A stretch of 61,320 nt of DNA from Candidatus Neomarinimicrobiota bacterium. Lineage in GTDB: Bacteria > Fidelibacterota > Marinisomatia > Marinisomatales > S15-B10. This document shows, piece by piece, positions 7,161-44,074 of the stretch (positions are counted from its first letter, which is position 1; each line of letters begins with the position of its first letter). A program made the position numbers and the translations under genes. The stretch covers positions 1 through 61,320 of the forward strand of contig JAZGBI010000026.1 of assembly GCA_036476315.1 (NCBI GenBank), read 5' to 3'. The notes under the pieces were generated by a model. It was not told where the DNA came from and made no database searches. It saw only the letters and a list, made by a program, of their open reading frames with translations.

Positions 7161-8066
7161 TCATGCCAAGGAATCAATGAGTGTTCGAAGTGCCCGGGTG
7201 TGGTCGGGTCCGGAGCCGCAGCAGCTGCCCATGATACGGGCACCCAAATCGAAGGCCGTTTTCATCTGCTCAAGGAAAAGCCCTTCTTCATAGAACTCCG
7301 CGATTTTCCCTTCGGGCGAAGGCATGGATTTTCCCAGGTTAGGATAGATTCCCGTGGGTATGGAAGTCACTCCCCGCAATTGTTCAAGGGCCTTTATGGA
7401 TTGAAATATGCTGGAACAATTGACCAAAACCGCATGGGCCCCCATGTCCACGGACATGGCTGCTGCACGTATGAGAGTGTCGCCACCGAGAAGATGCTCC
7501 TCGTCCCCAAGAATGAAACTCACCCATCTTGGACAATCCATCTCCTGAGTTGCCTTCAGGGCACTTTCGGCTTCGTCGATTCGTCCCATCGTTTCTATTA
7601 ACAGCAAGTCCACTTCTTCGCGAATCAGCCATTGGGCCAGCTCGGAAAACTCCGTCGCAGCCTCCCGTGTGCCCGGGAAGAGTTCCGGTCTGTAGCAGTC
7701 CTCCAGGGGCGCTATGGAACCTGCCACCCATGCGTTGCCGCCCGCCGCGGCCCTGGCAGCCTTGACGGCTCTCCTGACCAGTTTCCGTGCCCGGCGTCTG
7801 GCCGCTTCTTCATTTCCCATCACTTTCAAAAGGGTTCGGGTAGTGGTACGAAATGTAGTGGAGGTCAAAACCTCGGCCCCTGCGGAGATGTACTCCTGGT
7901 GGATGTCCACCACCATTTCCGGATGCACCTGGAGAACTGCCGCCGACCAGAGGGGAAGGGAGACGTCCGCCTTCCTCCGAAGAAGCTCCGTCCCCATGGC
8001 ACCATCCAGAAGGAGGGGCGGACCCGACTCAAGCCGATCATCCAGTGTCATGGGATTAGCCCGCAT
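7161..8066 (-). CDS. Homocysteine S-methyltransferase family protein
   Basis: This 301-residue TIM-barrel protein has the family's zinc ligands: one Cys in LVNCSS (near 216) and the pair in GSCCGSGPDH near 282-283. LLLDGAMGTEL at the N-terminus is typical. The family moves a methyl group from S-methylmethionine or a similar donor to homocysteine; it lacks the cobalamin and folate domains of MetH. The first ATG (8066) lies inside the terminal inverted repeat of an inserted element, which also supplies a GGTGAG ribosome site. A second in-frame ATG, six codons in, fits the family N-terminus equally well. Catalysis is likely, the donor unknown. Confidence 0.82.
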   Translation of the reverse strand: MRANPMTLDDRLESGPPLLLDGAMGTELLRRKADVSLPLWSAAVLQVHPEMVVDIHQEYISAGAEVLTSTTFRTTTRTLLKVMGNEEAARRRARKLVRRAVKAARAAAGGNAWVAGSIAPLEDCYRPELFPGTREAATEFSELAQWLIREEVDLLLIETMGRIDEAESALKATQEMDCPRWVSFILGDEEHLLGGDTLIRAAAMSVDMGAHAVLVNCSSIFQSIKALEQLRGVTSIPTGIYPNLGKSMPSPEGKIAEFYEEGLFLEQMKTAFDLGARIMGSCCGSGPDHTRALRTLIDSLA

Positions 8067-8244
8067 TTCTCACCACCAAATCTACTGCAACGGAGAATAT
8101 GTTCACGACTGCGGCGTTACACTTGAAAAACGTACTCGACGTACTGTCTAGTAAGCCTCCGTGCTTTTTTCTGCGTTGGCCTTGTATTCATAAACATCTC
8201 CTCTCCCGACGCGTTGGGACTACGTTTATGGTGAGAAAAGCGGG
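8059..8244. mobile_element. MITE-like repeat, family D copy 1
   Basis: A 186-bp segment bounded by inverted ends, GCCCGCATTTCTCACCA (from 8059) and TGGTGAGAAAAGCGGG (8229-8244). A copy in opposite orientation at 43891-44069 matches along most of its length. It has no coding capacity. The right end touches the stop codon of the SDR gene at 8245 and the left end overlaps the first codons of the methyltransferase gene. Compared with copy 2, it carries a different stretch near 8204-8219 (TCCCGACGCGTTGGGA). Confidence 0.85.
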
Positions 8245-9036
8245 TTAGCGTATCTTGTAAAGCCAGGTAAACAAACTCACAAATGTTTCCGGGAAATAAC
8301 GGTAAAGGGCGTACATCAGTTTGACATCCCAGGCATCGAGGATAACAAACCGGCCCTTTTTCATTCCTTTGATGAGGGATCTCACCGCATCGACAACTTC
8401 CAGGATCTTGAATTTACCTGCCCAAGCACCATAGTCGTCCCAGTGGTCTCTCACGAGGGGCGTATCAACAAGAGAGGGACACAAAACCGATATTTTTATC
8501 CCGAAGGGTTTCAGTTCATGACGGAGAGAATCGGAAAAGCGAAGTAGGGCAGCCTTACTGGCCCCGTAGGAAACCCACCTGGGAAAGCCCAGAAGGGCGG
8601 AAACGGATGCCATATTGACGATGTAACCTTCTCCCTGTTCCTTCATCACGGGAACAACGAGTCTGCAGTAGCGGGTGGCGGCAAAATAGTGGACTTCCAT
8701 GTGCTGACGGATACGATCTTCAGACATATCTTCGAAATATGCCGGCCCCCCCACGCCGGCACAATTGACCATGATATCGACTCCTCCCAGCTCTTTCAAA
8801 GTGGAATCCACCACTCTCTCCACGTCCTCTTTCCGGCTGACGTCCCCTGGAACGATAATGACTGTTCCTCCGCCACCTCTCACCTCCCCGGCCACCTGTT
8901 CCAATCTGTCTTCCCTTCTGGCAGTTAGTACGATACTCACCTCAAGCCGCCCAAACTCCCGGGCAATACCCGCTCCGATTCCGCTGGAGGCCCCGGTGAT
9001 AATCGCCCGCTTTCCTTTGAACTGATACTTAGCCAT
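8245..9036 (-). CDS. Short-chain dehydrogenase/reductase (classical)
   Basis: This 263-residue classical SDR has TGASSGIG near residues 15-22 for NAD(P) binding, NCAGVGG for the beta-4 region, a catalytic Ser in MASVSALLGF, and Tyr/Lys in YGASK. The C-terminal 50 residues are hydrophobic and aromatic and end in a basic tail, as in SDRs bound to membranes or lipid substrates. The substrate cannot be deduced. The start is ATG at 9036; family A repeat DNA lies directly upstream and the stop touches the family D element. It is separated from neighbours by repeats, so it may be its own transcription unit. Confidence 0.85.
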   Translation of the reverse strand: MAKYQFKGKRAIITGASSGIGAGIAREFGRLEVSIVLTARREDRLEQVAGEVRGGGGTVIIVPGDVSRKEDVERVVDSTLKELGGVDIMVNCAGVGGPAYFEDMSEDRIRQHMEVHYFAATRYCRLVVPVMKEQGEGYIVNMASVSALLGFPRWVSYGASKAALLRFSDSLRHELKPFGIKISVLCPSLVDTPLVRDHWDDYGAWAGKFKILEVVDAVRSLIKGMKKGRFVILDAWDVKLMYALYRYFPETFVSLFTWLYKIR

Positions 9037-9069: not shown

Positions 9070-9237
9070 TACTTACGCTAAGGCTGAGATTTAGGCTAAG
9101 GCTAAGGTTCAAACTAATGAATGAGAGCATTTCCAATGGATCATTTGGATGGTTCCTCAATCTTAGTTCTTGGAAATTCGACCAAAAGAGTCTTTGTCTT
9201 TCCCTTCCTTCGCCTTCGCCTAAGCCTTAGCCTCGGC
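9070..9237. repeat. Family A repeat copy 1, period-6 tandem arms
   Basis: The left arm (about 9075-9110) is a degenerate tandem array of GGCTAA hexamers. The right arm (about 9203-9237) is the complementary array (CTTCGC, CTAAGC, CTTAGC units). The core, about 9133-9207, closely matches 20706-20780 in copy 2. The right arm contains the stop codon of the GNAT gene (9227-9229). No protein is convincing in it. Confidence 0.8.
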
Positions 9238-20611: not shown

Positions 20612-20813
20612 GAAAGGCTGAGGCTAAGAATAAGGCTCAGGTTGAGGCATAGGCTAAGGTTTCTCCACAGGAGTCCCTATGGGACAACGAATGAATAAAG
20701 ACGTCTCTAATGGATCCTGTGGACAGTTCCTCAATAGTATTTCTTGGAAACTCAAGCAAAAGAGTCTTTGTCTTTCCCTTTGTTTTCCTTAGCCTTAGCC
20801 TGTGTCTTAGCCT
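20612..20813. repeat. Family A repeat copy 2, period-6 tandem arms
   Basis: The left arm (20612-20660) is a degenerate array of AGGCTA/GGCTCA hexamers. The right arm (20776-20813) holds the complementary CTTAGC/CCTTAG units. The core at 20706-20780 closely matches 9133-9207. It fills the space between the HAD start and the Xaa-Pro peptidase stop. An extra palindromic stretch (TCCCTATGGGA near 20674-20684) is present here but not in copy 1. Confidence 0.8.
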
Positions 20814-20841
20814 CTTATTTTCTAAATTCTTTCGCCTTGGC

Positions 20842-29111: not shown

Positions 29112-30419
29112 GTGGCTTCAACCAGCGACTGGTTGACTTATCTCTTTTCCCTTCGTCGCCGGGGAATCAAAGTCGGTCTTCACCGAACGAAAGCTCTCCT
29201 GAATCGATGCAACAATCCCCACGAAGAAGTCCCTATGATTCATATTGCCGGCACCAACGGAAAAGGATCCACGGCGGCCATGATTGCTTCCGTCCTGAAA
29301 CAAGCGCAACGGAAGGTCGGATTGTATACCTCTCCACACCTTGTTACTTTTAACGAACGGATCCGCGTGAATGACGTTCCGATCGATGATAAGGATATTG
29401 TCGCCTTCCTGGACCGCTACCGTAAGGATATCGACAGATTAGGATCCACATTCTTCGAAACGACAACAGCCCTCACATTCCATCATTTCGCCCGGAAGAA
29501 AGTCGACGTGGCCGTCATGGAGGTTGGAATGGGGGGTCGTCTCGATTCGAGCAACGTGGGTCACTCTGTTCTCTCGGTTCTCACCCCCGTCGATGTGGAT
29601 CATGGTGAGTATCTCGGTTATGATCTCGCCTCAATCACCAGGGAGAAGTGCGGGATTCTGAGAGAAAACGTACCCGTCGTGGTGGCTCCACAGCACGATG
29701 ACGTCCTGGATATTATCCGGGAATCGGCCTCCCACGCGGGGTCGGACATTTCTTACGCTCCTGAAGCGTCACCCGTAAGCGACATAAGCGTTTCCCGGGA
29801 GGGAACCCGGTTCTACATGGAGAACCAGTGGTGGAAGATCCCTCTTCTTGGAAAACACCAGGCGACCAACGCTCAAACAGCGGCCATTTCCTGCCGACTA
29901 TATGACAAGGCGATAGCCCACACGGCCATTGAAGAGGGACTTCAAAAGGTTTTCTGGCCCGGGAGACTTCAGAGGGTGTGGGATACCCCTCCTGTCTATT
30001 ACGATGTGGCCCATAACCCGCACGGTTTGGCGGCTGTGCTGGAAACGCTCAGAGATCTTTTCAGTGGCCACACCCTGGGGGTCGTCTTTGGCTTGAAGAA
30101 GAAGAAGGATATAAGAAAGATCGGTCATTTGCTAAAACAGTACTGCGCCCATGTGGTGACAACTGCACCCGAGAATGGCGACTTCTTTACATCGGATTCT
30201 CTGGCACATGAACTGTCGAACCTGGGAATCCCTTCCATCGCGGCGCCATCCCTTCCTCGGGCACTTGACTACTGCAAGACAAGATCTCTCCCTTGTGACC
30301 TGTGGCTTATTTTCGGCACCCATTACATTTCGGGCGATGTTTTTCGCAGATTCCATTTTCCCTTTGACAAAGATGAGAATTGGTCTAAATTAATCATGAC
30401 CGCAAGATTAGATATCTGA
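29112..30419 (+). CDS. folC: Dihydrofolate synthase / folylpolyglutamate synthase
   Basis: A 435-residue Mur-ligase-type enzyme that adds glutamate to dihydropteroate or folates. The P-loop HIAGTNGKGST (about 44-54) is followed by LYTSPHL, ERIRVN and the METGMGGRLDSSN-type block seen here as MEVGMGGRLDSSN. The C-terminal domain has the YDVAHNPHG motif. The start is GTG at 29112, 38 bases after the amidase stop. The length is typical. It sits between the amidase and rho on the plus strand, and the identification is firm. Confidence 0.93.
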   Translation: MASTSDWLTYLFSLRRRGIKVGLHRTKALLNRCNNPHEEVPMIHIAGTNGKGSTAAMIASVLKQAQRKVGLYTSPHLVTFNERIRVNDVPIDDKDIVAFLDRYRKDIDRLGSTFFETTTALTFHHFARKKVDVAVMEVGMGGRLDSSNVGHSVLSVLTPVDVDHGEYLGYDLASITREKCGILRENVPVVVAPQHDDVLDIIRESASHAGSDISYAPEASPVSDISVSREGTRFYMENQWWKIPLLGKHQATNAQTAAISCRLYDKAIAHTAIEEGLQKVFWPGRLQRVWDTPPVYYDVAHNPHGLAAVLETLRDLFSGHTLGVVFGLKKKKDIRKIGHLLKQYCAHVVTTAPENGDFFTSDSLAHELSNLGIPSIAAPSLPRALDYCKTRSLPCDLWLIFGTHYISGDVFRRFHFPFDKDENWSKLIMTARLDI

Positions 30420-30478: not shown

Positions 30479-31726
30479 ATGGATATTAACGAGCTTCAGG
30501 CGTTGAAAATCAAAGAGCTCACCAAGCTCGCACAAGAGTTGGACGTCCCCCGCTACTCGGGTGTGAAAAAGCAGGACCTGATCTTAAAGATCCTGGAAAC
30601 GAGCGCCGAAAAGGAGGGTCGCCTCTTTTCCAATGGCGTCCTGGAAGTCATGCCGGAGGGATACGGCTTCTTGCGATCCCAGGACTACAATTACCTTCCT
30701 GGCCCGGACGATATCTACATCTCACCCTCCCAGATCAAGCGCTTCGGTCTCCGGACCGGGAATAAGGTTGCCGGGCAAATCCGGCCCCCCAAGGACAATG
30801 AACGGTTCTACGCCCTGTTGAAAGTGGAATCCGTGAATAATCAACCTCCTGACCAGGTGAAAAAGGCGATCCTGTTTGACAATCTCACGCCCCTTTATCC
30901 CGATGATAAGATTAATCTTGAGACGTCGCAAAAAGGTCTTTCTATGAGAGTTCTTGATCTCATGACACCCATCGGGAAGGGACAGCGCGGTCTCATCGTA
31001 GCTCAGCCGAAGACGGGAAAAACCATCCTGCTGCAGAAAATTGCCAATGCCACCACGACGAATCATCCTGAAGTCAAATTGATCGTTCTCCTCATCGCCG
31101 AGAGGCCTGAGGAGGTGACGGACATGCAACGGAACGTGGATGCGGAGGTGGTGAGTTCAACCTTCGATGAACCTCCGGAACGGCACGTCCAGGTTGCAGA
31201 AATGGTTCAGGAAAAGGCAAAACGTATGGTTGAGTACGGTGACGACGTGGTCATCCTCCTCGACAGTATTACGAGGCTGGCCCGTGCCCACAATGCTATA
31301 GTACCCCACAGCGGTAAAATCCTTTCTGGCGGGATTGACGCCAATGCCCTCCACAGGCCGAGGCGCTTTTTCGGCTCCGCGCGTAATACCGAGGAAGGGG
31401 GTAGCCTCACCATTATTGCGACGGCACTCATCGACACGGGTAGCCGAATGGATGACGTCATTTTCGAAGAATTCAAGGGTACCGGAAATATGGAATTGGT
31501 TCTCGATCGCCGCTTGAGTGACCGGAGAATTTTCCCCTCATTTGATCTCATTCGCTCGGGTACCCGTAAGGAGGAACTTCTCCTGTCCAAAAAAGAACTT
31601 GCAAGAGTCTGGATTCTTAGAAAGATTCTGAATGAAATGACTCCTGTTGAAGCCATGGAGTTTTTACTCGATCGCATGAGGCGCACTTCGAACAATCAAG
31701 AGTTCCTCGACACAATGAGTCAGTAA
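30479..31726 (+). CDS. rho: Transcription termination factor Rho
   Basis: A 415-residue hexameric RNA-dependent ATPase that ends transcription. The N-terminal Rho_N helical domain (1-45) is followed by the cold-shock-like RNA-binding domain with [19 protein letters not shown] (60-78). The Walker A motif is AQPKTGKT (175-182) and Walker B follows around [16 protein letters not shown]. The compact length means it lacks the long N-terminal insertion of some phyla. It is followed after 33 bases by an orphan Cas6b-like gene. The identification is firm. Confidence 0.97.
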
Positions 31727-31759: not shown

Positions 31760-32632
31760 ATGCCGGAGAATTCTGAACCTATAAGATCCATCGTCGCACG
31801 TCTTTCCACCGATAAGCCTGTCCGGAAAACCCCCTACCAAGTCAAGGGAGTGATCATGCACGATTTTCCCGCCGAACCCATCGTGCCGCTCATTGACGGA
31901 TCCTACCGGGAACAATTCCTCTACCCACGGGTACAGGTCAAAATTTTGAATGAGCAGATCTACCTGGTTGGAATCAAGGAGGGGGTTGAGCCCGTCGAAT
32001 CGATTCTGGACATGCTCAAAACGTTAAATTTCGGGAACATTACGTTTGAGGTGCAAGATTTTGATGCAGAGATTGAGAATGATCGCTTCATGCCCACATC
32101 GCGGATGATCCGTTACAAGTTTCTCACACCCTGGATTGCCCTGAACGAGACAAATCTCATGAAGTACAAGTACATGTATGGGGAGGAGAGACTGAAACTT
32201 CTCATACGCCTTTTGAGTCAGAACATCGTTTTCCTGGCTAAGGAAATGGGACTACAGCTCCAGACAAAGATCTTTTCCAAATTGAAGCTTGAATCCCTCT
32301 ATCCCAAACTGGTGGATGATGGTCAGATGGGGTCCTTTCAGGGAGAATTCCGATGCAATTTTATCCTGCCGAATTTTCTGGGTATCGGCAACGGTATCAC
32401 GAAAGGGTATGGTGTTCTCTTCAGCCATTTCAATCCCGCGGACTTCACGTTTGATGAGAGCGAACTGGAGAAGAAATCCCACAATGAGCAGGACGTGGAA
32501 GATCTTCCGGAGAATTGGGAAGAAGAGGCCATCGCACCTGACGACATACCCAGGAGCCGCCGTGGCGCCGGGGAGTCCAAGAAGGACGAACCCAACTACA
32601 ACGCTCTCGAGTATCACAAGCGTAAACACTAA
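31760..32632 (+). CDS. Cas6b-like RAMP-fold protein without a CRISPR locus
   Basis: A 290-residue protein that I match, from memory of the family, to Cas6b. The N-terminal half has a YPRVQVKI strand (55-62) then YLVGIKEGVEPVESI (68-82). The middle has YKFLTPWIALNE (119-130). The C-terminal RAMP glycine-rich loop is FLGIGNGITKGYGV (206-219), followed by an acidic then basic tail (225-290). Cas6 enzymes bind and cut CRISPR repeat RNA. The catalytic histidines of known Cas6b proteins fall near residues 42-46 here, where I see VPLID and no His, so it may bind RNA without cutting. There is no repeat array or other cas gene in the window. It sits between rho and an aminotransferase gene with 33- and 24-base gaps, suggesting a housekeeping role. 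Homology is moderately sure, function unknown. Confidence 0.6.
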   Translation: MPENSEPIRSIVARLSTDKPVRKTPYQVKGVIMHDFPAEPIVPLIDGSYREQFLYPRVQVKILNEQIYLVGIKEGVEPVESILDMLKTLNFGNITFEVQDFDAEIENDRFMPTSRMIRYKFLTPWIALNETNLMKYKYMYGEERLKLLIRLLSQNIVFLAKEMGLQLQTKIFSKLKLESLYPKLVDDGQMGSFQGEFRCNFILPNFLGIGNGITKGYGVLFSHFNPADFTFDESELEKKSHNEQDVEDLPENWEEEAIAPDDIPRSRRGAGESKKDEPNYNALEYHKRKH

Positions 32633-32656: not shown

Positions 32657-33841
32657 ATGTTAGCCCATCGGGTGAATCGCATTCAACCATCGTTCACCCT
32701 CGAAATGACCGCCAGAGCGGCGGAACTTCGAAGTGAGGGGATAGACGTGATTGACCTGGGGGTGGGGGAACCCGATTTCAACACCCCCGAGAATATCCGT
32801 CAGGCGGCAAAACGTGCCATGGATGAAGGTTACACCAAGTACACTCCAGTGTCAGGAATGCTGGAATTGCGCGAGGCCATCTGTGAGAAATTGAACCGGG
32901 ATAACGATCTTTCCTATTCTCCTAATCAGATCATCGCTTCAAACGGGGCGAAACACGCCCTCAGCACGGCCTGCCAGGCTCTGTTCAATCCCGGCGATGA
33001 GGTGATCATTTTTTCTCCTTACTGGGTTTCTTTCCCGGAATTCGTCCGACTTGCAGACGCAAGCCCCGTTATCGTAAGGACAGACGCCGAAAGAGAATTC
33101 ATTCCCGACTTCGAGGATCTGGAAAGAAAAATCAACTCCAACGTCCGGGGTATGATTGTCAATTCTCCGTGCAATCCCACCGGAGCCGTGTGGGACGATG
33201 AAACCGTCACCAGGCTCCTTGAGCATGCTGCCAGTCACGACTGGGTGGTTATTTCCGATGAATGCTACGAACGGCTGGTTTATGACGCTCCTTTCACCTG
33301 TGCCGAGAAGCTCAACAAGGACGGTGCCAATGTTCTCACCATACAGAGCTTGTCCAAAACGTATGCCATGACGGGCTGGCGAATAGGCTATGCCGCGGGA
33401 GATGCGGCCATCATAGCAGCCATGGGAAAGATTCAGGGCCAGGCGACTTCCTGTCCGAATTCTATCGGCCAGAGAGCGGCAATTGAGGCCCTTCTTGGAG
33501 ATCAGAGCGAAGTGCAAAAAATGGTAGACATTTTTCAAGAAAGGCGTGTCAGCATGATCGATCGTCTGAGTGAGATTCCCGGCCTGTCATGTACCATGCC
33601 CCGAGGTGCGTTCTACGCTTTTCCTCAGGTGACCGATTACCTCGGCCGCTCTGCGGACGGCAAGAAAATCGACACTTCTTTCGATTTATCTGATTACATT
33701 TTGGACTTTGCCAGAACGGTTACAGTGGCGGGTGCGGGATTTGGCGATGAAGGACACATTCGTCTTTCCTATGCCACCGACACGGCCACCTTTCTTGAGG
33801 GTATTAAAAGAATTGAAGAAGCTTTGAGTCGATTAACCTGA
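32657..33841 (+). CDS. aspC: Class I pyridoxal-phosphate aminotransferase (aspartate aminotransferase type)
   Basis: A 394-residue fold-type I enzyme. The cofactor lysine is in LSKTYAMTGWRIGY. The NSPCNPTGAVWDDE segment carries the substrate/PLP asparagine, SDECYERLVYD holds the pyridine-contacting residues, and FARTVTVAGAGFGDEGHIRLSYA carries the C-terminal arginine that binds the substrate carboxylate. It most likely moves the amino group between aspartate and 2-oxoglutarate; related prephenate or aromatic substrates cannot be ruled out. It starts at the ATG at 32657, 24 bases after the Cas6b-like gene. The family call is firm. Confidence 0.9.
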   Translation: MLAHRVNRIQPSFTLEMTARAAELRSEGIDVIDLGVGEPDFNTPENIRQAAKRAMDEGYTKYTPVSGMLELREAICEKLNRDNDLSYSPNQIIASNGAKHALSTACQALFNPGDEVIIFSPYWVSFPEFVRLADASPVIVRTDAEREFIPDFEDLERKINSNVRGMIVNSPCNPTGAVWDDETVTRLLEHAASHDWVVISDECYERLVYDAPFTCAEKLNKDGANVLTIQSLSKTYAMTGWRIGYAAGDAAIIAAMGKIQGQATSCPNSIGQRAAIEALLGDQSEVQKMVDIFQERRVSMIDRLSEIPGLSCTMPRGAFYAFPQVTDYLGRSADGKKIDTSFDLSDYILDFARTVTVAGAGFGDEGHIRLSYATDTATFLEGIKRIEEALSRLT

Positions 33842-33850
33842 ATTAATCGC

Positions 33851-34047
33851 CACACCTGCCCGCTCCCGACCAAAGGGAGGTCAAGCGGGGAGACCACAGA
33901 GAAAAATAATGAATATGGATTTACAAAAAGACAATATTGACCGGACTACCCTAAGAACAAAAAGTGCAAGTTAGTCGTCTTGAAGTTTCTAATTCCATTT
34001 ATGTACTCTGTGTTCTCCCCGCCTGACCAGCATGTCGGGCACGTGTG
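33851..34047. repeat. Family B repeat copy 2 with nested inverted arms
   Basis: Outer arms CACACCTGCCCG (33851-33862) and CGGGCACGTGTG (34036-34047) pair at 11 of 12 bases. Inner arms 33879-33901 and 34006-34028 pair at 21 of 23 and contain the CACAGAG / CTCTGTG unit. The core (33909-33965) shares the AAAAAGACAATATTGACC stretch with copy 1. It fills the gap between aspC and rpmE. Confidence 0.82.
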
Positions 34048-34061
34048 GTTGAGGAGTTAAC

Positions 34062-34283
34062 ATGAAAAAGGACATTCATCCCGAGTATAAACTCGGAACA
34101 GTGACTTGCGCCTGCGGCAACACGTTTCAGGTGCGAAGCACTGTGGGGGATATGCGCGTGGAAATCTGCTCAGCGTGCCACCCCTTCTTTACGGGTAAAC
34201 AGAAGTTGGTGGATACGGCAGGAAGGATCGAGAAGTTCAGAAAAAAGTACGGGCGACCTGAAGCGCCTGACAAAAACTCATAA
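34062..34283 (+). CDS. rpmE: 50S ribosomal protein L31, zinc-binding type
   Basis: A 73-residue L31 with [10 protein letters not shown] at the N-terminus, the family signature. Four cysteines (TCACG and ICSACHPF) show it is the C+ zinc-binding form, not the zinc-free paralogue used in starvation. It binds the 50S central protuberance and bridges subunits. The gene is bracketed by two family B repeats and ends in a clear intrinsic terminator. The identification is firm. Confidence 0.96.
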
Positions 34284-34359: not shown

Positions 34360-34529
34360 CACAGAGAAAGACAATAGGTATAGCTCTACAGAAGGATAAG
34401 ATCGAGGAAAGCAGATTAGGAATTAAATTGGAAATGAGTCATTCTAAATCTCTTAATATCAAGTTTCTATGCTCTGTGTTCTCCCCGCCTGCCCCCTCCC
34501 GCTGCGGCGGGATCGGGAGGGGCGGGCAG
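34360..34529. repeat. Family B repeat copy 3 with GC-rich hairpin end
   Basis: The left end begins CACAGAGAAAGAC (34360-34372). The right end has CTCTGTGTTCTCCCCGCCTG (34472-34491), identical to copy 2 for 18 bases, then a GC hairpin (CCCTCCCG / CGGGAGGG, about 34494-34519). The core shares GTCATTCTAA (34438-34447) with copy 1. The prfA start is 27 bases beyond. Confidence 0.78.
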
Positions 34530-34555: not shown

Positions 34556-35626
34556 ATGCTTGAAAAGATAAAAAAAATAATCGAAAAGTCTGAGGCCCTC
34601 GCAAGCCAGTTGGCTGATCCTGAAATCCTCTCGGATCCAAAGCGATTGCGGGAAATCTCCAAGCAGCACCATGAGCTGGAGCCCCTGGTAAAAAAAGGGA
34701 AGTCTTATCTCAAGGTGATGGATCAAATTGAAGAGGATGAGGCTCTTCTTGGTGGCGATGATCTCGAACTGAAAGCCCTTGTGAAAGAAGAACTTGATGA
34801 GTTAGCTCAAAAGCGGGAAGTGCTGGAAGAGGAGCTCAAACTTCTTCTTCTTCCCAAAGATCCAAGAGATGATAGGAACACCATTGTGGAAATAAGAGCG
34901 GGAACAGGGGGAGAAGAGGCCGCCCTTTTTGCTGCTGATCTCTTCCGCATGTACAGTCGATATGCGGAACGTAAGGGGTGGCAATTGACCGCCTTAAGCA
35001 GCAGTGAAACGGGCAACAAGGGATTCAAAGAGATCATTTTTTCCCTGGAAGGAGAAGAGGTCTTCGGAGAGATGAAATTTGAGGGAGGCGTCCACCGGGT
35101 ACAGAGAGTCCCGGAAACGGAAGCGAGCGGCCGTATTCACACCTCCGCTGCCACCGTTGCCGTACTCCCGGAAGCGAGTGAAATTGAAGTGGATATCGAT
35201 CCTGCGGACCTGAGAATCGATACTTTCCGTGCCAGTGGTCATGGCGGACAACATGTCAACAAGACGGAATCAGCCGTTAGAATCACACACATGCCCACAA
35301 ATCTTGTCGTAACCTGCCAGGACGAAAAATCGCAGCACAAAAACCGGATGGCCGCTATGAAAGTGCTTCGATCTCGACTGCTGGCCCTTGAGGGTGAAAA
35401 GCAGCGAGCAAAGCGAGATCAGGCCCGAAAGAGCATGATCTCTACAGGCGATCGAAGTGCAAAAATCCGTACCTATAACTTTCCTCAAAGCCGAGTCACA
35501 GATCACCGGATCGATGTTACTCTATACAAACTCGATGATATCTTGGACGGTGACATATCGGTGCTCGTGGAGAAACTCCGTATAGGCGACCAGGTGGAGC
35601 GCCTGAAGGCCGAAACGCTCAACTAA
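34556..35626 (+). CDS. prfA: Peptide chain release factor 1
   Basis: A 356-residue class I release factor. The catalytic GGQ is in [14 protein letters not shown] (about 229-231). Domain 2 shows [18 protein letters not shown] upstream, and the C-terminal end has the [14 protein letters not shown] block. RF1 reads UAA and UAG stop codons and hydrolyses peptidyl-tRNA; the methylase for its glutamine, prmC, follows 5 bases later, as in many bacteria. It starts at the ATG at 34556. Confidence 0.97.
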
Positions 35627-43315: not shown

Positions 43316-43891
43316 AAAACAGTCATTATCATAACGTGGGTGACACTGTGCGTTTCGGTTTGTGGTCAGATAACCCAAACCATCAAGAAGGCGGATATTA
43401 TTGCGGACCCCAGTGACCCCAAAAGTGTTTTGGGTCGACTCTATCCGGGGACAGAGATCAGGAAGATAGGGAAGGATGCATCGGGTGAGTTTATCAAAGC
43501 GACCCTGGATTTCTACCTCCCCCTGGAGACGCTAAAGGAAGGACGAGTTGCGAAGAAGATCGGCGAATGGCAAACCGCTGACAATGCGAGAGTGAAACTC
43601 TTGCAAGTATCCAAACAAGGAAATACCGTAGAAGTATCCGTGATCATCGAAAATCGCGATAAGAACGATATGGACGTGAGTGCGCTTTTGTTATTCAAGA
43701 TGGTTGACGGCCAGGGGAATATTGGCAACCTGGAGTTCCTGGAGAGCAAGAACAGTGTGGGGATCGTAAAGCCTAGCCAGAGGTTGAGATCCGATCTGGT
43801 CTACAGGTTCATGGAGCCGCCCGACAACGTGGAGTTGAGCTTTCAGTCAAAACTGGGGGGAGATCAGGTCTTTTTTCTTCTCGGGTTTTAG
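43313..43891 (+). CDS. Small secreted protein, SH3-like N-terminus, unknown function
   Basis: A 192-residue protein with a signal peptide (TVIIITWVTLCVSVCG, ending near residue 19). Residues 30-65 look like a bacterial SH3-type beta module (LGRLYPGTEIRKIGKD). The C-terminal half is a beta-sandwich-like segment with VEVSVIIENRDKNDMDVSALL, reminiscent of DUF4352-type domains. I do not recognise a named family. Its start codon is the last three bases of a family C repeat arm, without a visible ribosome site. Its TAG stop overlaps the first base of the family D element. Confidence 0.7.
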   Translation: MKTVIIITWVTLCVSVCGQITQTIKKADIIADPSDPKSVLGRLYPGTEIRKIGKDASGEFIKATLDFYLPLETLKEGRVAKKIGEWQTADNARVKLLQVSKQGNTVEVSVIIENRDKNDMDVSALLLFKMVDGQGNIGNLEFLESKNSVGIVKPSQRLRSDLVYRFMEPPDNVELSFQSKLGGDQVFFLLGF

Positions 43892-44069
43892 CCCGCTTTT
43901 CTCACCATGAATCGTGACGAAACGGAGGAGACGTTTATGAATACAAGGCCTACGCAGGAAAAATGACGGAGGTGTACTAGACAGTACGCCGAGTACATTT
44001 TTCAAGTAGAACGCCGTAGTCGTAAGCATATACTCCGTTGCAGTAGATTTGGTGGTGAGAAATGCGGGC
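43891..44069. mobile_element. MITE-like repeat, family D copy 2
   Basis: A 179-bp element in the opposite orientation to 8059-8244. The ends GCCCGCTTTTCTCACCA (43891-43907) and TGGTGAGAAATGCGGGC (43053 bases from the left arm; 44053-44069) are inverted repeats. It begins with the G of the upstream gene's TAG stop. It has no coding capacity. Confidence 0.85.
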
Positions 44070-44074
44070 TCGGT

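Follow-up and report, generated by a model that had tools for sequence, protein, structure and literature searches.

Our analysis identified a protein of Cas6b descent, here termed Cas6L, that stands outside CRISPR in the rho locus of Fidelibacterota (Marinimicrobia). A preliminary description of this DNA had proposed an orphan Cas6b-like protein in a housekeeping gene cluster; its core claim was right, and its reach is wider than it stated. A Cas6b fold that lacks the catalytic histidines, lies beside rho and occurs in genomes nearly always free of CRISPR is therefore apparently a CRISPR part that has turned into a cell gene. We tentatively propose, at slightly less than an even chance, that Cas6L is a co-opted Cas6b in the rho unit, binds RNA without acting as a nuclease and acts together with Rho or upon rho mRNA. 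The open-access literature that was searched, with most subscription journals and all preprints outside it, contained no publication on a rho-linked or orphan Cas6.

The window, a stretch of 61,320 nucleotides from a Candidatus Neomarinimicrobiota bacterium (contig JAZGBI010000026.1), carries an open reading frame for Cas6L on the forward strand (31760-32632, start codon ATG, 290 residues). It lies 33 nt behind rho and ends 24 nt before an aspC-like aminotransferase gene (32657-33841), past which are rpmE (34062-34283) and prfA (34556-35626). These coordinates confirm the rho-aspC-rpmE-prfA setting described earlier. A promoter-like TTGACA-N16-TAAATT before rho is a possible promoter of a rho-Cas6L unit, although promoter-like sites in the region are no more numerous than expected by chance. 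In an alignment of rho leaders the conserved parts are mostly folC coding sequence and this promoter-like stretch, and an Rfam search of the window gave no match. The features discussed here are the following.

30364-30391, forward strand: promoter-like TTGACA-N16-TAAATT in the 3' end of folC; a similar stretch is present in near relatives.
30479-31726, forward strand: rho, found upstream of Cas6L in every one of the 126 genomes.
31760-32632, forward strand: Cas6L, rho-linked Cas6b-like protein of 290 residues, from Pfam, PADLOC and PDB matches, the AlphaFold2 fold and Foldseek.
31784-32059, forward strand: N-terminal Cas6b_N domain (RAMP/ferredoxin-like; PF17955), residues 9-100.
31883-31897, forward strand: VPLID, without histidine, where CRISPR Cas6b has its HxH catalytic motif, from alignment and counts.
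32096-32419, forward strand: C-terminal Cas6b_C domain (PF17262), residues 113-220.
32378-32413, forward strand: glycine-rich RAMP loop LGIGNGITKGYG, with Asn where the CRISPR-type GIGK has Lys.
32435-32629, forward strand: acidic low-confidence tail, net charge -9, ending in the conserved motif YNALEYHKRKH; an order-level addition.

The homology to Cas6b is strongly supported in both sequence and fold. The profile search places Cas6L above the Pfam cut-offs of both domains, with 88 bits against a cut-off of 39 for Cas6b_C (E = 5.6e-25) and 36 bits against 25 for Cas6b_N (E = 7.7e-9). PADLOC matched it to Cas6 (2e-41), and its sequence matched the solved Cas6b structure 4z7k (E = 1.2e-23); an NCBIfam search returned no match. 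The AlphaFold2 model, built with 45 relatives in the alignment, has a mean pLDDT of 82 and a pTM of 0.79; its low-confidence residues are mostly those of the tail. Structure prediction and comparison had been named beforehand as a test of the family assignment, and they recovered the Cas6b fold rather than no match. The top five Foldseek hits are Cas6b chains (E = 3e-17 to 2e-13, TM-scores of 0.80-0.84 by target length), the best being M. maripaludis Cas6b 4z7k (E = 3.2e-17), and below them rank Cas6 proteins from other systems, type IV among them. The structure and the tree described below exclude a chance profile match. Of the motifs picked out in the preliminary description, YPRVQVKI is present at residues 55-62 and the glycine-rich loop at residues 207-218. 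Cas6L shares with CRISPR Cas6b, both that of M. maripaludis (4z7k/4z7l) and the CRISPR-type proteins of the same phylum, the two Pfam domains, the two-domain RAMP fold, the glycine-rich loop and the core residues Y119, W125, N155, N200 and P204. Unlike these proteins, it has neither the HxH motif nor the loop lysine, is less basic, has no array or cas genes alongside, adjoins rho, is inherited vertically and has gained a tail in one order. The Cas6-related protein 3ufc of Pyrococcus furiosus, a Cas6 paralogue, also has the Cas6 fold (Foldseek rank 10), but it is a distant structural match with 15% identity. P. furiosus is a CRISPR-bearing archaeon, and the 3ufc gene is not known to adjoin a housekeeping gene.

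The differences at the active site bear directly on whether Cas6L cuts RNA. VPLID occupies residues 42-46, and alignment with the phylum's own CRISPR Cas6b proteins, which read IHNH there, agrees with the earlier placement of VPLID at the position of the catalytic histidines. None of 93 rho-linked proteins has the HxH motif, whereas 15 of 16 CRISPR-type proteins do, the remaining one reading NNH; no conserved histidine stands in for HxH across the rho-linked family. The residue after GxG in the loop is Asn in 86 of the 93 rho-linked proteins vs Lys in 13 of the 16 CRISPR-type proteins. M. maripaludis Cas6b has been reported to use two histidines, and Sulfolobus solfataricus Cas6 (Sso1437), which like Cas6L departs from the usual catalytic histidine, is active in crRNA processing in a CRISPR organism (PMC3652601). 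Because this enzyme cleaves despite missing the canonical histidine, loss of HxH does not prove that nuclease activity is lost; it is strong but not conclusive evidence, read from sequence, against such activity. On balance Cas6L has probably ceased to be a nuclease of the Cas6 type. It appears unlikely that its active site has been rebuilt to cleave cellular RNAs, such as mRNA of the rho operon or the RNA ends that Rho produces. Cas6-family active sites are known for their plasticity (PMC3652601; PMC6452270), the rho-linked proteins conserve N-terminal Y26, R50, Y55, R57 and K61, and two histidines of the tail motif are invariant within the order. However, Y55 and K61 are general fold residues common to CRISPR Cas6b, no conserved histidine replaces HxH family-wide, and the tail histidines are missing from deeper clades.

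The linkage to rho holds in every sampled genome with Cas6L. We searched 245 Fidelibacterota genomes with the Cas6b_C profile and found it in 130, 4 of which have only a CRISPR-type Cas6b; the other 126, about half of the sample, have rho-linked Cas6L. The preliminary description had called for a survey of the gene behind rho in CRISPR-less relatives, and rho was found upstream on the same strand in all 126 genomes. The spacing is within 330 nt in 124 of them and 413 nt in one, and in one Cas6L lies behind a frameshifted rho; the median gap is 35 nt (107 loci). In a separate contig scan, which started from a single query sequence, reached close relatives only and included many of the same organisms, 60 of 60 loci were also rho-linked. 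Other phyla were sampled separately (about 147 genomes) and yielded eight Cas6b genes of the CRISPR type; each has HxH and none adjoins rho. Several lineages have an intact rho but no Cas6L; there aspC, rpmE or another gene comes next, and no hidden Cas6-like reading frame was found behind rho. One family, with very small genomes (about 0.4-1.0 Mb), keeps rho intact and misses Cas6L, and outside this family the absences checked within the same order were assemblies without rho or ending inside it. Rho is therefore not dependent on Cas6L everywhere. Two of the genomes without Cas6L carry second, divergent rho genes (L188, G022:C15, 47% identity; L189, G204:C128, 42% identity).

A maximum-likelihood tree was built from 24 rho-linked and 18 CRISPR-type proteins, the latter from the phylum, other phyla and M. 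maripaludis. A branch supported at 98/94 divides the two kinds, so that the rho-linked proteins stand apart from CRISPR Cas6b and not within it. The rho-linked subgroups largely track taxonomic families. Distances of Cas6L correlate with those of Rho beyond chance (r = 0.73, whereas permutations reached at most 0.32), and the two trees have 24 of 55 splits in common, which gives strong support to vertical inheritance beside rho. Cas6L evolves about 3.4 times as fast as Rho, and dN/dS values of 0.04-0.20 in close pairs strongly support purifying selection. Recent transfer or decay is excluded by these dN/dS values and the agreement with the Rho tree. The direction of change was probably from CRISPR to the rho-linked kind, because the latter is confined to one phylum.

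It might be argued that Cas6L is merely carried near rho and functions elsewhere, for example in translation, given that rpmE, prfA and prmC are nearby. Indeed, many genomes of the phylum keep folC, rho, prfA and prmC together with or without Cas6L. But none of the downstream genes is as constant as rho, and the rho linkage persists in several lineages in which aspC is missing or has moved, so that a mere passenger seems quite improbable. A role with Rho or the rho transcript leads because the linkage is constant even where the next genes change.

The mean net charge of the core is +3.9 in rho-linked proteins vs +8.1 in CRISPR Cas6b, and +3 in the window protein. The tail motif [YF]N..[YFH]H...H is found in 71 of 93 members, H286 and H290 are invariant among 45 relatives of the order, and the end motif may be a binding motif. 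Rof/YaeO are acidic Rho inhibitors. Cas6L could be comparable to them in effect, as a protein-binding adaptor or Rho inhibitor that has lost RNA binding; the less positive core, the acidic tail with its conserved end motif and the constant pairing with rho fit such a function. In contrast, the deeper clades keep the rho linkage without the acidic tail. When Rho sequences were compared, no residue was found that tracks Cas6L cleanly; at the best column the frequency differs by 0.61 between genomes that have Cas6L and those that lack it. A fused rho-Cas6L was modelled by extending the rho reading frame past its stop codon into Cas6L, with which it is in frame in the window; the model reached a pTM of only 0.38 with Rho itself poorly modelled, and does not speak for or against contact. 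We regard an adaptor or inhibitor of this kind as distinctly improbable.

Cas6L is almost certainly a derived protein independent of CRISPR. Of the 245 genomes 31 have Cas1, and among the 126 with Cas6L the number is 12; the two genes show no positive association (odds ratio 0.55, p = 0.18). The 114 Cas6L genomes without Cas1 and the fixed site behind rho bear out the orphan, non-CRISPR status proposed at the outset. The window's genome (95.8% complete) and nine members of its family, all with Cas6L, gave no Cas1, Cas5 or RAMP match. No match of these kinds thus points to a CRISPR-Cas locus in this genome that lacks its own Cas6, the finding named in advance as contrary to the proposal. A scan that detects arrays in cas loci found none in the window, as had been noted before, or in the rho-linked loci that it covered. 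Six genomes (G006, G007, G033, G070, G083 and G179) have a separate second Cas6b-type gene in addition to Cas6L, and several of these second copies are on a Cas1-bearing contig or beside an array. The CRISPR-type Cas6b proteins of the phylum are encoded away from rho, in several cases with Cas1 on the contig or an array nearby, read IHNH and GIGK and score 104-146 bits vs 67-99 for the rho-linked ones (partial genes excepted). One CRISPR-type cas6b (L147, G209:C10) has its frame broken by a stop codon in the N-terminal part. That Cas6L still matures crRNA in trans for arrays elsewhere in the genome could draw on its Cas6b domains and fold, on the 12 genomes with Cas1 and on the atypical active site with which SsoCas6 cleaves (PMC3652601), but it is rejected for lack of a positive association with Cas1. 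It is scarcely credible, given that genomes with CRISPR can have a Cas6b of their own with HxH, that neither Cas5 nor RAMP matches occur in the window's family and that Cas6L is inherited with rho rather than with cas genes.

In the mechanism that we favor, a Cas6b-family protein would have been taken over once, early in Fidelibacterota, as a cell gene of the rho transcription unit. It would have lost crRNA cutting, while its RAMP body of two domains would still serve to bind RNA. Because of this fold, Cas6L is rather likely to bind RNA still; this step is weakened because the core is less basic than that of CRISPR Cas6b. Cas6L would be made together with Rho and could influence either Rho-dependent termination or the rho transcript. 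For instance, it might bind particular single-stranded RNA and then pass this RNA to Rho or shield it. We consider the chances that its function is tied to Rho or to rho mRNA to be even. A bolder version, in which Cas6L is a lineage-wide Rho partner that reads specific RNA and steers termination or rho expression, is more doubtful.

The CRISPR exaptations listed in one review are reduced whole systems, mostly on mobile elements (PMC6452270). The exapted minimal CRISPR-Cas variants (Tn7-linked I-F/I-B, type IV and V-U5; PMC6452270) resemble Cas6L in that CRISPR parts serve in non-defence roles. However, these are mostly whole reduced systems and largely mobile, whereas Cas6L is a lone Cas protein fixed in a chromosomal rho locus with no other Cas component. 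A lone Cas6 fixed by rho phylum-wide, with its catalytic motif lost, would exemplify how a Cas protein becomes a component of cell housekeeping. If Cas6L acts with Rho, it could offer a new way into termination control in uncultured marine bacteria, and as a Rho partner it would represent a new class of bacterial transcription regulator of Cas origin. Our results also call for caution in annotation: profile libraries label Cas6L as Cas6, though most carrier genomes are without Cas1.

The preliminary description had suggested palindromic repeats in the window as a target of the protein, which did not hold. The short repeat CTCTGTGTTCTCCCCGCCTG flanks rpmE in both orientations (33882-33901, 34006-34025 and 34472-34491). 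In its own genome CTCTGTGTTCTCCCCGCCTG has three exact copies, compared with none in nine family members that keep Cas6L, and this absence rules out a repeat of the CTCTGTGTTCTCCCCGCCTG type as a conserved Cas6L substrate. Beyond the sites at rpmE, one further exact copy of CTCTGTGTTCTCCCCGCCTG is present elsewhere in the genome. The window also contains an inverted pair of about 190 bases (8058-8247 and 43889-44070), 84% identical and 36 kb apart, and a direct repeat pair of about 125 bases (9112-9234 and 20686-20814), 78% identical.
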